Positions 15,460 through 21,138 of a DNA stretch of 64,000 bases are shown one piece after another. How positions within the stretch are numbered: the first letter of the stretch is position 1; each line of letters opens with the position of its first letter. The notes below the pieces were generated by a model. That model was not told the origin of the DNA and made no database searches. It was given only the letters and a program-made list of their open reading frames with translations. A program made the position numbers and the translations under genes. Source of the DNA: Candidatus Nitrosopumilus sediminis (GTDB lineage: Archaea > Thermoproteota > Nitrososphaeria > Nitrososphaerales > Nitrosopumilaceae); assembly GCF_000299395.1 (NCBI RefSeq), contig NC_018656.1, positions 1,364,001 to 1,428,000 of the forward strand, given 5' to 3'.

Positions 15460-15492
15460 ACTTAAATGAGTCTAGCCTAGAGATTTGTTCGT

Positions 15493-15567
15493 GGGCTCGT
15501 AGCTCAGCTTGGCTGGAGCGTTCGACTGATAATCGAAAGGTCATGTGTTCGAATCACATCGGGCCCA
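15493..15567 (+). tRNA. tRNA-Ile (GAT anticodon)
   Basis: 75-base cloverleaf: acceptor GGGCTCG with CGGGCCC, anticodon stem TTCGA/TCGAA around loop CTGATAA giving GAT, and T-stem TGTGT..ACACA-like around TTCGAAT. No encoded CCA and no intron. Confidence 0.94.
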
Positions 15568-15574
15568 TTTTTCA

Positions 15575-16468
15575 TCATTTTAGATTTTCAGACACAGTTT
15601 GAGACCATTGTAAAATATCCTCAATTTTTTCAGAAATTAAATCGGCACGAATTTTAGATTTTTTGGATACTTTTCCACAAAGTGCTAATTTCATATTTTT
15701 TCCAGATTTTTCAACAATTGGATTTATGGAATCTGCAAAAAAGTTTAGGCCTTCATCAGTTTGAGAAAATACTACCACTATCAAGATTCCAGGTTTTTGT
15801 TTCCAAACTTTTCCTATCAACTTTTGAAAATCAAGATCAAACAACACATTGATTGAAGATGACATGTCCCCCAAATGAGAAACTCGCCAACCATCAGAAT
15901 GATAAACTGTTGAAGATGCCTCAGAAGCCAATCTACTTTGTGTATCAGCTGCCATTACAATGACATTCTTTTTTGGATCAGACACTATCTGAATCTGGTT
16001 GAAAATTTGAAGTGATTTTGATATAGTGTTCATTAGTAGATTTTGTTCTGAAGTTCCAATCTTACCATCATCGTATAATTTTTTCACATGCTCAATTGAT
16101 GGAAAAATTACTTCTAGTACCAGGCGATTTACAGTTCCTCCAGAATTCAAGCAATTACGAATTAATGAATATACTTGGTCTTCATTTCCCTTTACCAAGT
16201 ATTCAATATACTGTGGGGATATTTTGAAATAATCATCAGGGAAGTTGAAAGACTCTTGTCCAGGTTCTAAAAACCACAAAGTTACATTTCCGATATTTTT
16301 TTGTCGGAGCAACCCTTCTGCTGCAAAAACTTTGAGATACTTTGACATTGTAATTCTGCTCACACCAATTTTTTCTGAAATTTCAACTCCAGACATACCA
16401 GAGACATTATCATCTAAAATTGAAATTAGTTTCTGCCTAATTTCTTCAGTTGAATATCCTTTTCCCAT
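15575..16468 (-). CDS. Winged-helix regulator with cobalamin-type sensor domains lacking the key histidines
   Basis: A 297-residue protein in three parts. Residues 1-68 form a winged helix (GVEISEKIGVSRITMSKYLK). Residues about 82-155 align by pattern with the four-helix cap of B12-binding regulators such as CarH (VLEVIFPSIEHVKKLYDDGK, GTSEQNLL). Residues about 160-290 form a Rossmann-like domain (VIVMAADTQSRLASEAS, HSDGWRVSHLGDMSS, KPGILIVVV). The cap's usual E-H pair is E-Q here and the DxHxxG lower-ligand motif is DTQSRL, so cobalamin binding in the known way is unlikely. ATG 16468 is preceded by a TATA-like CTTTATAG (about 16488-16496). Divergent from the gene at 16586. Confidence 0.75.
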   Translation of the reverse strand: MGKGYSTEEIRQKLISILDDNVSGMSGVEISEKIGVSRITMSKYLKVFAAEGLLRQKNIGNVTLWFLEPGQESFNFPDDYFKISPQYIEYLVKGNEDQVYSLIRNCLNSGGTVNRLVLEVIFPSIEHVKKLYDDGKIGTSEQNLLMNTISKSLQIFNQIQIVSDPKKNVIVMAADTQSRLASEASSTVYHSDGWRVSHLGDMSSSINVLFDLDFQKLIGKVWKQKPGILIVVVFSQTDEGLNFFADSINPIVEKSGKNMKLALCGKVSKKSKIRADLISEKIEDILQWSQTVSENLK

Positions 16469-16542
16469 AGTGCTCTTGGACCATAGTATTCTATAAAGAC
16501 TAATTTTGACTAATATGAGAAGGCATAATTTTTGAATAAAAC

Positions 16543-16569
16543 ATTATATAGTTGGGTACTGTATAGTAC
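16543..16569 (+). promoter_or_regulatory. TATA box and inverted-repeat operator candidate
   Basis: ATTATATA (16543-16550) is followed by GTACT-N4-AGTAC (16556-16569), an inverted repeat lying between the TATA box and the expected start of transcription (about 16573). That is a typical repressor position. The divergent winged-helix regulator (start 16468) is the obvious candidate ligand. Inference from position only. Confidence 0.45.
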
Positions 16570-16585
16570 GGTAAGGAAAAGTAAA

Positions 16586-16972
16586 TTGCCAAAAGCTGGA
16601 TTCAAATCAATCACTGTTTCGGAAACTGTTTATGATAAATTCCACGAAGTTTATCAGAAGAGTAAAGACGACCTAACAATGAAGGGCGTCAACAGTTTTG
16701 CCGGTTATGTAACTTACATGTTAGAGGAGATGATGCAAAAGGACAAGACCTTTGCAAGATACGCTCCAAAGATTGAAAAAATTTCAATAGATGATGATCG
16801 TGTTGTACTAAAAGATAATATCAAAAATAGAATTGCAGAAGTTGCAATTCAAAAAGGCGAACTATTTTGCCAGCTCTGTGACGAAAAGGATTGTGTACAT
16901 GTTGGTTTTGTATTCTCATTACCAGATGTTTACGAAGTTCTAAATTCTAGAGGAATTAAAAATCCAAGATAA
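16586..16972 (+). CDS. Small zinc-motif protein of unknown function
   Basis: A 128-residue protein. The first ~75 residues are helical (KSITVSETVYDKFHEVYQKS). The C-terminal part has FCQLCDEKDCVHVGF, a C-x2-C-x4-C-x-H cluster likely to bind zinc, followed by LPDVYEVL. The frame is open to a TTG at 16532, but the TATA box at 16543-16550 lies inside that extension, so TTG 16586 with AAGGA 8 bases upstream is preferred. The N-terminal part could be a ribbon-helix-helix-like dimeriser. Its stop touches the 3' end of tRNA-Leu on the other strand. Possibly controlled by the divergent regulator. Confidence 0.75.
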   Translation: MPKAGFKSITVSETVYDKFHEVYQKSKDDLTMKGVNSFAGYVTYMLEEMMQKDKTFARYAPKIEKISIDDDRVVLKDNIKNRIAEVAIQKGELFCQLCDEKDCVHVGFVFSLPDVYEVLNSRGIKNPR

Positions 16973-17423: not shown

Positions 17424-18284
17424 TTGAAGCAAGTTTATCGACAAATTGCAACTGCCCCAAAACCATTCGTAAAATGGGCAGGTGGAAAACGTCAACTAAT
17501 TCCCATTCTAAATGAAAATCTCCCAAAATCCTTTGGAACCTATTATGAGCCATTTCTAGGAGGAGGTGCATTACTGTTCCATATGCTTACTGAGAGAAAT
17601 GCTCAAAAATGCAGTATCTCTGATTTGAATTCTGATCTTGTTTTGACATACATTACAATTAGAGACAGAATTGATGAGTTAATTTCATCACTGAAAAATC
17701 ACGAAAAAAACTATCAAAAAGATTCAAAGACATACTATTACTCAGTTAGGGAATCCAATCCAAGAAGTGAAATTGAAAAAACATCAAGATTGCTGTTTTT
17801 GAATAGAACTTGCTTTAATGGATTGTACAGAGTAAACAGCAAAGGAAAATTCAATGTCCCTCTAGGCAGGTACACAAATCCTAATATCGTAAATGAAGAT
17901 AATTTACGCTCAGTTAGTGCTATTTTACACTCTAGCAAAGTTGCAATAAAATGCAGGGATTTTGAATCAGTTCTCCGAGATGCTAAAAAAGGAGATCTAG
18001 TTTACTTTGATCCCCCATACCAACCAGTTAGCGATACTGCCAACTTTACGAGTTATACAAATAAGAGTTTCACATATGATGATCTTCATAGATTATCCAA
18101 GCTTTGTTTGAAATTAGATTCTAAAGGATGCAAAGTTTTATTGTCAAATTCTGATTCAAAAGAAGTTGCAAAGATTTTCTCAGACAAACCTTGGAAAATA
18201 AATAAAATTCAAGCTAATCGCTCAATTAATTCAAATTCTAAAAAACGAACTGGGCACTTTGAATTACTGATTAAAAATTATTAG
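17424..18284 (+). CDS. D12-class DNA adenine N6-methyltransferase (Dam-like)
   Basis: A 286-residue enzyme that would transfer a methyl group from SAM to adenine N6 in DNA. Motifs: KPFVKWAGGKRQLIP (N-terminal Dam signature), YEPFLGGGALLFHML (motif I, SAM binding), FNGLYRVNSKGKFNVPLGRY, and the catalytic DPPY in LVYFDPPYQPVSDT. It has the size and layout of Dam/DpnM-type enzymes, which often act on GATC. No restriction endonuclease or mismatch-repair gene is adjacent, so it looks solitary. The start is uncertain: TTG 17424 is used, and no ATG precedes the Dam motif in this frame. It lies between tRNA-Thr and amoA. Confidence 0.88.
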   Translation: MKQVYRQIATAPKPFVKWAGGKRQLIPILNENLPKSFGTYYEPFLGGGALLFHMLTERNAQKCSISDLNSDLVLTYITIRDRIDELISSLKNHEKNYQKDSKTYYYSVRESNPRSEIEKTSRLLFLNRTCFNGLYRVNSKGKFNVPLGRYTNPNIVNEDNLRSVSAILHSSKVAIKCRDFESVLRDAKKGDLVYFDPPYQPVSDTANFTSYTNKSFTYDDLHRLSKLCLKLDSKGCKVLLSNSDSKEVAKIFSDKPWKINKIQANRSINSNSKKRTGHFELLIKNY

Positions 18285-18487: not shown

Positions 18488-19138
18488 TTAGTCCCACTTT
18501 GACCAGGCGGCCATCCATCGGTATGTCCAAGTATTCAATTTACAACCTAATGCTGCAAATGTACATGCCAATACTGCACCTGCACCTGCACCGAGTGCAA
18601 CTGGGCTGTTATAGAATTTGCCTACTTGCGGTTCGATTGGTGTCATATATGGTGGCAATGTTGGTCTTGGATATTTGAATGCCGTCTCTAGTGGGTCTGC
18701 TACTGTTATCAGGTTTACCATGTTGAACAATGGTAAAGACATTCCTACTAGTACGCCGCCAAACAGTATCAAGGAGTGCTTGTTCTTCTTTGTAGCCCAG
18801 TAAACTAAGTCCAACAGCATTGCTGATGGTAACCAAACTGGAGTTACAATGAAGTCATATGGGTATCCTAGCGAAAACCATGCGGCTTTTGCTACCCATG
18901 TGTATACTGTCATAATTAGAGCGTAGTACGTTGCTGTGCCTGGAACGCCTGTAAATGTTAGGTAATATGTTGCACCTACAATAAGCATCAACGTTTGCGA
19001 TATTGAGAATACCGTGTACGAAGTCCAAGCCCAGTCAGTGTAGAAGATGTAGTCTCCTGCATTAATTGTTAACAGTGTTGAGTTAACTGCAACTACTACT
19101 ATGAATAAGTAGTGTGTACATCGTCTTAACCAGACCAT
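18488..19138 (-). CDS. amoA: Ammonia monooxygenase subunit A
   Basis: Membrane subunit of archaeal AMO (216 residues, the standard archaeal length), which oxidises ammonia to hydroxylamine. It starts MVWLRRCTHYLFIVVVAVNS and has about five or six membrane helices; INAGDYIFYTDWAWTS and WFSLGYPYDFIVTPVWLPSA are strongly conserved in archaeal AmoA. It sits in the archaeal order amoA-amoX-amoC (same strand) with amoB divergent. A TATA box (19161-19170) about 27 bases upstream of the ATG implies its own promoter and a leaderless message, so the genes need not form one transcript. Confidence 0.98.
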   Translation of the reverse strand: MVWLRRCTHYLFIVVVAVNSTLLTINAGDYIFYTDWAWTSYTVFSISQTLMLIVGATYYLTFTGVPGTATYYALIMTVYTWVAKAAWFSLGYPYDFIVTPVWLPSAMLLDLVYWATKKNKHSLILFGGVLVGMSLPLFNMVNLITVADPLETAFKYPRPTLPPYMTPIEPQVGKFYNSPVALGAGAGAVLACTFAALGCKLNTWTYRWMAAWSKWD

Positions 19139-19276: not shown

Positions 19277-19639
19277 TTACCATCCAACGTATAGTGATAC
19301 GAATAGGCAAAATGCAGTTGCGCCGGCAATACTACCGCCAACTATGCCATTACTATTTTTGTTGGAACCTTCTTCCATGACTTTAACACAGAAGATGTAA
19401 CCTATTGATATAATGATTGTAAGTACGATGAATGCAAAGTGACCACTTGCTGTTGGATATGCCCATGGATAATAGAAGTATCCAGCTGCAGTACCACCAA
19501 AAGTTGCCAATATTGCTGCCCAGAATGAAACTGTGATCATACCAGTCATGTTTTCAACGCGTTTTCCAATCATTCGTTCTATATCAGCACTTGATGAACC
19601 ACCAGTGCCGCCAGAACCGAATCCCTTTGGAAGAGTCAT
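19277..19639 (-). CDS. amoX: AMO-associated subunit AmoX
   Basis: A 120-residue membrane protein encoded between amoA and amoC, the position and length of the AmoX protein found in all archaeal amo clusters and now regarded as an AMO subunit. The Gly/Ser-rich N-terminal tail (KGFGSGGTGGSSSADIERM) is followed by three or so hydrophobic helices (ITVSFWAAILATFGGTAAG, FIVLTIIISIGYIFC, IAGATAFCLFVSLYVGW). It has its own TATA-like box about 30 bases upstream. No catalytic residues are recognisable. Confidence 0.93.
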   Translation of the reverse strand: MTLPKGFGSGGTGGSSSADIERMIGKRVENMTGMITVSFWAAILATFGGTAAGYFYYPWAYPTASGHFAFIVLTIIISIGYIFCVKVMEEGSNKNSNGIVGGSIAGATAFCLFVSLYVGW

Positions 19640-19753: not shown

Positions 19754-20317
19754 CTAAGGAATTGCTCTGCTGTACAATTTGCCTTCTAAGGCCATCTTGT
19801 ACATCTCTGCAACGTATGGATTCTCTCCTGGAGTTTCTGCACCAAGTTCTACGAGTCGAGCATATACTCTAACTACGTATGCTAATGCACCCATGAAAGC
19901 CACTACGACTCCCATGTTAAACATCCAGTGATTTGGAACTGCAAAGATTTCTTCTACAAACCAGAAATGCCACATCTCATTGACACCAATTGTAAACATG
20001 GTTGCAAGGTAACCAAGAATGGTCATCTTCAATCCAGTATTCATTGAATTATTTGGGCCTCTAAGAACTGGGATTTTTCTATCATAGATTGCTGCTGCTC
20101 CCCATCCAAGTGGTAATGTAATGAAGTGGGAGTATAGCCACCAGTGAGCTGGTGTAAATGCACTATCTCTGATAGAGGTTTGATGTAAAGAACCATCAAC
20201 GAAGTTATCAACTTCGACTGATGCTGCAGTAGAACCCATAGCAATAACGATGAGCCAGACTTTCTTTAGTCTCTGGATCTCAACTTCTTTTGGGATTAAT
20301 GCGGGCATCTGTGCCAT
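19754..20317 (-). CDS. amoC: Ammonia monooxygenase subunit C
   Basis: Membrane subunit of AMO (187 residues) that carries the metal site thought to be near the active centre. MAQMPALIPKEVEIQRLKK is the standard archaeal AmoC start. It is followed by VEVDNFVDGSLHQTSIRDS and FTPAHWWLYSHFITLPLGWG, which hold the conserved Asp/His metal ligands, and NEMWHFWFVEEIFAVPNHW. The frame extends to 20329, but ATG 20317 is chosen because the TATA box (20341-20348) predicts transcription starting about 20319. Upstream gene of the minus-strand amo trio. Confidence 0.97.
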   Translation of the reverse strand: MAQMPALIPKEVEIQRLKKVWLIVIAMGSTAASVEVDNFVDGSLHQTSIRDSAFTPAHWWLYSHFITLPLGWGAAAIYDRKIPVLRGPNNSMNTGLKMTILGYLATMFTIGVNEMWHFWFVEEIFAVPNHWMFNMGVVVAFMGALAYVVRVYARLVELGAETPGENPYVAEMYKMALEGKLYSRAIP

Positions 20318-20340
20318 GGATAACATCATGTCAATTCGGA

Positions 20341-20535: not shown

Positions 20536-20568
20536 GACGTGTTTTATCTTCTCACTTTAGGGATAACT

Positions 20569-21138
20569 ATGGTCGAAAAAAGAATTTTCGTATTTGGACT
20601 TGCTGTAGTACTTGCACTAGGAACCTTAGGTTTCAACTGGGTTGAATCCGTACTTCCAACTGCAGATGCACACGGTGTCCAAGCACAACTCCAGAGTCGT
20701 TTCATCAGAATTGAGGATGAAACCTTCAACAGACAATCCCTGCAAACTGGCGAAACCTTGACACTTCAAGGAACATTAGTCAGTTTAGTAGAAAGAGACC
20801 TTAGAGGATGGCTATCCATTTTCACAGAGTCTACCAACGCAGGTAACAGATGGGAGATGTTGGCAAGAGATCCACCAGGAAACGTCTTTGACATTCCAGG
20901 TAACTCAGTTGTCGATTACTCACTATCAGCCAAAGCACTTGAAGCAGGTGTATACCACGTACACACCCAACTCAACATTGCAAAAGTTGGTCCAGGACTC
21001 GGTCCAGGTCAAACAGTAGTAGTTGAAGGAGATCCAATACTCAAAGATATTCCATACACTAACATCGCATATCAATCAATTATGATCGGTGTCGGTTATG
21101 TCATTACCTTTGCAACACGACCCTGGCAAGTAATCTAA
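20569..21138 (+). CDS. amoB: Ammonia monooxygenase subunit B
   Basis: Copper-binding subunit of AMO (189 residues, the short archaeal form without the second cupredoxin domain of bacterial AmoB). It has an N-terminal signal/membrane segment (FVFGLAVVLALGTLGFNW), then DAHGVQAQLQSRFIRIE, whose His becomes the mature N-terminal copper ligand, and YHVHTQLNI with the H-x-H pair. A C-terminal helix (IMIGVGYVITFATRPW) anchors it. ATG 20569 (MVEKRIF) is preferred to the upstream TTG. Divergent from amoC. Confidence 0.97.
   Translation: MVEKRIFVFGLAVVLALGTLGFNWVESVLPTADAHGVQAQLQSRFIRIEDETFNRQSLQTGETLTLQGTLVSLVERDLRGWLSIFTESTNAGNRWEMLARDPPGNVFDIPGNSVVDYSLSAKALEAGVYHVHTQLNIAKVGPGLGPGQTVVVEGDPILKDIPYTNIAYQSIMIGVGYVITFATRPWQVI

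Follow-up and report, generated by a model that had tools for sequence, protein, structure and literature searches.

The closest described systems by structure are CarH and LitR (Thermus thermophilus 5C8D, 3WHP), MerR-type B12 photoreceptors in which a four-helix cap and a Rossmann fold lie behind the DNA-binding domain, and which carry a Wx9EH motif, an upper His and a lower His, bind AdoCbl and form a light-dependent tetramer. In the methyltransferase corrinoid proteins MtaC and MtbC, which act as partners of enzymes, the lower-ligand His is retained and there is no fused DNA-binding domain. A relative of the B12 domain has also been put to another use in bacterial regulation, in the SCHIC domain of AppA and in AerR. 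CarA of Myxococcus xanthus, a paralogue of CarH, works independently of B12 (PMC9304148). In this study, we describe a regulator gene of Candidatus Nitrosopumilus sediminis, in a window of 64,000 nucleotides (nt) (the whole stretch analysed, G000:C1:1364001-1428000, with its first letter as position 1 below) of a 1.69 Mb genome on one contig. We think it probable, with the reservations weighed below, that the gene encodes a B12-independent, oligomeric one-component transcription regulator that was exapted from an archaeal corrinoid domain and controls ammonia-oxidation functions. Its restriction to ammonia oxidisers and its link to amoA are, in our judgement, more important than the lost B12 ligands as such.

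Results

Domain architecture of the regulator

The regulator is a product of 297 amino acids (aa) whose open reading frame (ORF) begins with ATG on the minus strand and is open and conserved in 37 other genomes, at 45-94% identity. Two alignments were used throughout, A1 with 38 sequences and A2 with 24 sequences, the latter family-wide. The gene and its domains are placed as follows:

15575..16468, minus strand: regulator gene, winged helix plus degenerate corrinoid-binding (cap and Rossmann) domain, from the ORF, Pfam, AlphaFold2 with Foldseek, and orthologs
16265..16456, minus strand: winged helix DNA-binding domain, aa 5-68, from Pfam HTH_24, DSSP and alignment
15998..16231, minus strand: four-helix cap (B12-binding_2), aa 80-157, from PF02607 and model helices
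15587..15970, minus strand: Rossmann (B12-binding-type) domain, aa 167-294, recognised by fold and below Pfam detection

The DNA-binding domain reaches 22.0 bits against HTH_24, where the Pfam cut-off is 21.9, and matches only winged helix-turn-helix profiles (HTH_24, HTH_11, ArsR/Lrs14-like); residues R38, T40, K43, Y44, L45, G60 and W65 are invariant in the alignment of the families sampled. Behind it, B12-binding_2 (PF02607) matches aa 86-150 with 23.6 bits against a gathering cut-off of 23 (26.3 bits in the genome scan), and the same profile matches 21 of 24 family members at E<=0.1, the best at 9.9e-10. The second B12 family to which the first-pass annotation had pointed, B12-binding (PF02310), gave no match above cut-off for the regulator in the Pfam searches, though three other loci in the genome are above it.

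Recognition of the remainder required profiles and folds, as the single protein sequence had no match in the PDB at E<=10. An AlphaFold2 model built with 38 orthologs (mean predicted local distance difference test, pLDDT, 88) was compared with the PDB by Foldseek, and cobalamin photoreceptor domains dominate the top of the list (CarH 5c8f E=1.4e-8, 8jbt E=2.9e-8), with photocobilin 8j2y and LitR 3whp as further matches. Because the fold matches of one model might be luck, we also modelled a divergent ortholog from the Nitrososphaeraceae, about 25% identical to the regulator (pLDDT 89.9); its matches were of the same type (8jbs E=9e-9, template modelling score 0.78 to target). AerR 7te2 is among the fold matches of the regulator models. 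Going by predicted fold, then, the C-terminal half of the regulator is a corrinoid-binding domain, and its relation to the B12 domain is, as judged from a profile alignment with an intact paralog and from the B12-binding_2 matches, one of homology and not of analogy alone.

The winged helix, B12-type helical cap and Rossmann scaffold proposed at first pass are therefore borne out by the Pfam matches and by Foldseek comparison of two models only about 25% identical, and structure prediction brought CarH/LitR and photocobilin cobalamin domains as best matches. The label "CarH-like regulator" fared less well: it is apt for the fold and wrong for the family, since the winged helix is ArsR/Lrs14-like and not of the MerR type, and by sequence the nearest proteins are MtaC/MtbC.

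Loss of the cobalamin ligands

The register of the ligand positions was taken from profile alignments to MtaC (2i2x), 1y80, 8jbs and the intact paralog (hhalign), all of which agree. W131, H132, E141-H142 and the axial His177 of Thermus CarH fall on Y132, D133, Q142-N143 and S178 of the regulator, respectively, and the two ligand motifs now read:

16040..16075, minus strand: former Wx9EH upper-face motif, now Y132-x9-Q142-N143, from profile register and ortholog alignment
15926..15943, minus strand: former D/ExHxxG lower-ligand motif, now T176-Q-S178-R-L-A181, from profile register and ortholog alignment

No His is found at columns 133, 142, 143 or 178 in the 38 aligned orthologs of A1 or the 24 of A2, in line with the earlier proposal that the known cobalamin ligands are gone. 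That proposal had read the upper pair as "E-Q" and the lower motif as "DTQSRL"; the loss was right, but each reading was one residue off by the profile alignments. The equations of EH with E141-Q142 and of DxHxxG with D175-x-Q177 are ruled out by three alignments, E141 preceding the EH pair. We also considered and rejected retained His residues: L099 has one at 177, and a few orthologs have one at 175, 180 or 181, of which none is in a ligand column and none is conserved.

Where orthologs do not have S at column 178, they have N, E, G or another residue. In A2, the GG of the tail site is missing in most family members, and when families are compared the old ligand columns (142, 143, 176, 178 and 181) rank at the 70th-94th percentile for variability. 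Since MtaC has Y at the Trp position, Y or F there is not in itself a loss; the strong point in the alignments for ligand loss is the missing lower-ligand His together with its acidic partner.

A conserved acidic insert

A further element separates the regulator from its relatives:

15827..15853, minus strand: lineage-specific insert INVLFDLDF, aa 206-214, after strand beta-2, from a gap in hhalign, conservation and structure

Across families the motif is FD[L/I]D, with D211 and D213 kept in 23 of the 24 sequences of A2, where G200, D211, D213 and S235 are nearly invariant. Mean entropy, 1.79 bits over the whole of this alignment, falls to 1.07 bits in the insert and to 0.91 bits in the recognition helix; the intact paralog lacks residues 206-214 (hhalign gap). 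In the regulator model the region is part of a long helix (202-221, pLDDT about 80) at the beta-2/alpha-2 junction, and in the Nitrososphaeraceae ortholog it is a loop followed by a helix from 210 (pLDDT about 88-92). From fold topology, the sheet edge that bears the insert would face the corrin ring. Constraint appears, on the alignments, to have moved: the ligand columns vary between families, and conservation of the acidic insert comes close to that of the recognition helix.

The intact paralog of the same genome (L049:6569-7411; G000:C1:929568-930410) resembles the regulator in having cap and Rossmann domains, but its Wx9EH and ExHxxG motifs are intact and it scores 51 bits against PF02310 and 41 bits against PF02607. 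It aligns with the regulator at E=1.8e-4 over 175 columns (hhalign). No winged helix was found in it, its N-terminus being of another kind, and it is patchy among ammonia oxidisers, yet present in many of them. On its motifs, we regard it as a candidate B12/light sensor of ammonia-oxidising archaea. Its gene adjoins a transcription factor B (TFB) gene and is divergent to an NAD-epimerase-like gene, whose homolog is found in about 20 of 30 related loci.

Distribution among ammonia oxidisers

A scan of the phylum with the A1 profile (398 genomes) recovered the full-length regulator in 28/28 genomes of the same genus, 33/35 of the rest of the family and 10/10 of two other families (71/73 in total), always as a single copy. 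Outside the ammonia-oxidiser families the scan returned short winged-helix matches only. When amoA status was set with PF12942 (archaeal AmoA) and only full-length matches were counted, 12 of 14 amoA-positive genomes had the regulator, with a fourth family (f67) represented among them, and all 11 amoA-negative genomes from the order lacked it. The negative side of this comparison rests mainly on 8 genomes searched with A2, the other 3 coming from the phylum scan or not having been re-searched. One amoA-negative genome (G334) has a winged-helix-only match within a 113-aa frame. The two amoA-positive exceptions are fragmented assemblies, G082 of 210 contigs and G311 of 120; in the latter, the usual neighbour of the regulator lies at a contig end (352-735 of its contig). 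Two genomes have a broken frame, by frameshift or stops that reflect sequencing error or decay (L091 of G307, and G382:C1:152927-153816). In the genomes sampled, the regulator is specific to ammonia-oxidising archaea.

Linkage to amoA

In the window, the regulator lies about 2 kb from amoA, between a tRNA gene and the amo block:

15492..15568, plus strand: tRNA-Ile(GAT), convergent, directly downstream of the regulator
17424-18284: D12-class adenine DNA methyltransferase (PF02086), between a 128-aa gene and amoA
18488..19138, minus strand: amoA, ammonia monooxygenase subunit A (PF12942 E=4.2e-115 at G000:C1:1382545-1383093)
19277-19639, minus strand: amoX, from sequence and gene order, not Pfam search
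19754-20329, minus strand: amoC, from sequence and gene order, not Pfam search
20539-21138, plus strand: amoB, from sequence and gene order, not Pfam search

The amoX/amoC/amoB block recurs in relatives, and linkage of amo genes is described in passages of PMC10030591. In most Nitrosopumilaceae the regulator is about 2-5 kb from amoA, and the usual order, which Nitrosotalea shares, is amoB-amoC-amoX-amoA-(D12 adenine methyltransferase)-(128-aa gene)-regulator-(thioredoxin-like AhpC/TSA gene)-secreted protein-CoaD. In four Nitrosocaldus genomes its distance to amoA is about 6 kb; there it keeps to the same side but is inverted, in a block that also has rpsO and a recJ-like gene. Passages of PMC10030591 place the Nitrosocaldaceae as the earliest-diverging ammonia-oxidising archaea; linkage to amoA therefore holds in two families that flank the earliest split among ammonia oxidisers, and is probably ancestral if that placement is followed. 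The same source examined five genes on each side of amo, and its main-text passages discuss no regulator. A search of the literature for locus tags Nmar_1496-1499 and for B12-binding regulators in Nitrosopumilus found nothing.

As a separate observation, the D12 methyltransferase accompanies the amo block in many Nitrosopumilaceae.

Upstream region and divergent gene

The region between the regulator and its divergent neighbour holds the following:

16490..16507, minus strand: regulator promoter, B recognition element (BRE) plus TATA-like, AAAATTAGTCTTTATAGA, conserved in a 22-species alignment
16556..16573, no strand assigned: operator-like inverted repeat TACCGTACTATACAGTA(C), conserved, between the TATA box and the divergent gene start
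16586..16972, plus strand: divergent neighbour of 128 aa, with no Pfam match, syntenic across Nitrosopumilaceae

The BRE/TATA-like element is about 27 nt before the regulator ATG, so a leaderless transcript is probable. A separate TATA box precedes the divergent gene, and after this box comes the conserved inverted repeat, whose sequence TACCGTACTATACAGTA(C) is a one-mismatch copy of TACSGTANNNTACSGTA. Four exact copies of TACSGTANNNTACSGTA occur in the genome (G000:C1:390246, 507662, 835678 and 1268927), all upstream of or between genes. Two of them lie directly 5' of a gene, which is a small winged-helix gene in one case and a RadA-like gene in the other; the remaining two are intergenic, with a Kef-type antiporter and a TrpE-like gene as neighbours. 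Of the 14 Nitrosopumilaceae genomes sampled, 13 have 2-4 exact copies each, with almost none elsewhere and reversed-pattern controls near zero, and from this pattern the TACSGTANNNTACSGTA sites look like a real small regulon. Near amo, the palindrome has 3-mismatch matches only.

We dropped the assignment of this operator (TACSGTA-N3-TACSGTA) to the regulator itself because the palindrome is nearly confined to Nitrosopumilaceae, whereas every family conserves the recognition helix. A factor particular to Nitrosopumilaceae, of which the 128-aa neighbour would be an example, suits it as well or better. That protein appears by eye to have a ribbon-helix-helix-like N-terminus and has a Cys/His cluster (CxxC-x4-CxH) near its C-terminus; its mean column identity is about 80% in Nitrosopumilaceae, and Nitrososphaeraceae have multiple distant copies.

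Discussion

The best structural matches of the regulator are CarH and LitR, yet it is not a CarH, because its DNA-binding domain is an archaeal winged helix and not of the MerR type and because the Wx9EH motif and the upper and lower His are all gone. It differs from those photoreceptors also in its nine-residue insert after beta-2, its archaeal host and its link to amo. By sequence the cap is nearest to MtaC/MtbC, down to the Y at the Trp position; the regulator differs from these proteins in lacking the lower-ligand His and in being fused to a DNA-binding domain. CarA, like the regulator, is built on this scaffold in a host that also has an intact B12 protein, and by analogy the regulator may dimerise and work as CarA does, without B12. 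CarA keeps a B12 motif where the regulator has neither, and the DNA-binding domains differ. In the mechanism we propose, the winged helix would bind DNA, and the cap and Rossmann domain, descended from a corrinoid-binding domain, would no longer bind cobalamin, going by the ligand loss, and would act as a B12-independent oligomeric sensor. The signal may be read by or near the insert, and the targets would be tied to ammonia oxidation. The option that the domain only oligomerises, also raised at first pass, survives, with a new conserved element added to it.

Several observations weigh against this interpretation. In Nitrosocaldus the gene is inverted relative to amoA, so the two are not transcribed as one unit, and inheritance of position could be all that the linkage reflects. 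Linkage is absent from the Nitrososphaeraceae (positions in G209 and G386), whose amo genes are dispersed according to passages of PMC10030591. The SxT motif retains its Ser (S235) in 23 of 24 sequences (A2), and within Nitrosopumilaceae N143 and S178 are each conserved in 34 of 38 (A1), so that free drift is true between families and not within this one. Judged from these columns, the pocket in Nitrosopumilaceae may not be fully relaxed, and cobalamin may bind without a protein His ligand.

The alternative that survives best, though we hold it unlikely, is that the regulator is unrelated to ammonia oxidation, being a core housekeeping regulator that lies by chance in a conserved block. Non-amo genes (rpsO, the recJ-like gene, coaD and trpS) are also syntenic there, and the lack of amo linkage in Nitrososphaeraceae would suit this alternative. 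It is opposed by the distribution: the regulator tracks the presence of amoA across genomes and full-length orthologs are absent from amoA-negative relatives, which is not expected for a housekeeping gene.

Somewhat more doubtful is the view that the regulator genuinely senses a ligand in the service of ammonia-oxidiser metabolism, with heme or a different tetrapyrrole, a nucleotide, or a metal (copper, for example, via the acidic insert) bound in or beside the former corrin pocket. Sensing of another tetrapyrrole or a nucleotide was part of the first-pass annotation, and we found nothing positive to support it: the old ligand positions have drifted between families, and what is both new and conserved is the acidic insert. 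D211, D213, G200 and S235, being almost invariant, could serve such a site, as could an insert placed by fold topology at the corrin-side strand edge, and a heme-binding relative of the B12 domain exists in the SCHIC of AppA. Set against this, there is no conserved set of His, Cys or Met to suit heme or copper, the columns of the former pocket vary across families, and no ligand has positive support. The architecture of AppA and AerR differs from that of the regulator, for which there is no sign of heme.

We consider it improbable that the regulator still binds cobalamin, base-on or base-off, as an atypical B12/light sensor with no protein His. The fold is kept, as is S235 of SxT; Y or F at the Trp position is found also in MtaC, itself without EH; and ammonia-oxidising archaea make cobalamin. 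These points are outweighed by the loss of the axial His and its D/E partner, the absence of GG in most members, the drift of ligand columns between families, the insert at the corrin edge and the separate protein with intact motifs that the genome keeps. Decay of a B12 regulator into a remnant without function, as the broken frames in G307 and G382 could suggest, is scarcely credible, since the gene is open and constrained in about 70 genomes, with a nearly invariant recognition helix and a conserved promoter.

Returning to a B12-independent regulator tied to ammonia oxidation, we offer one extension tentatively, as a history that we think rather unlikely in its full form: an ancestral transcription factor shared by all ammonia oxidisers, arising on their stem by fusion of a winged helix with a corrinoid domain, followed by loss of B12 and gain of the FD[L/I]D sensing or contact element at the old cofactor face.

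We found no transcriptional regulator of ammonia oxidation in archaea named in the literature that we searched, and how ammonia is partitioned and regulated in ammonia-oxidising archaea is listed as open in passages of a 2023 review (PMC10432482). The regulator clearly illustrates how a cofactor domain can keep its fold, lose its cofactor residues in all members examined and come under new constraint elsewhere, and it is a good candidate for the missing regulator of a globally important metabolism, ammonia oxidation.
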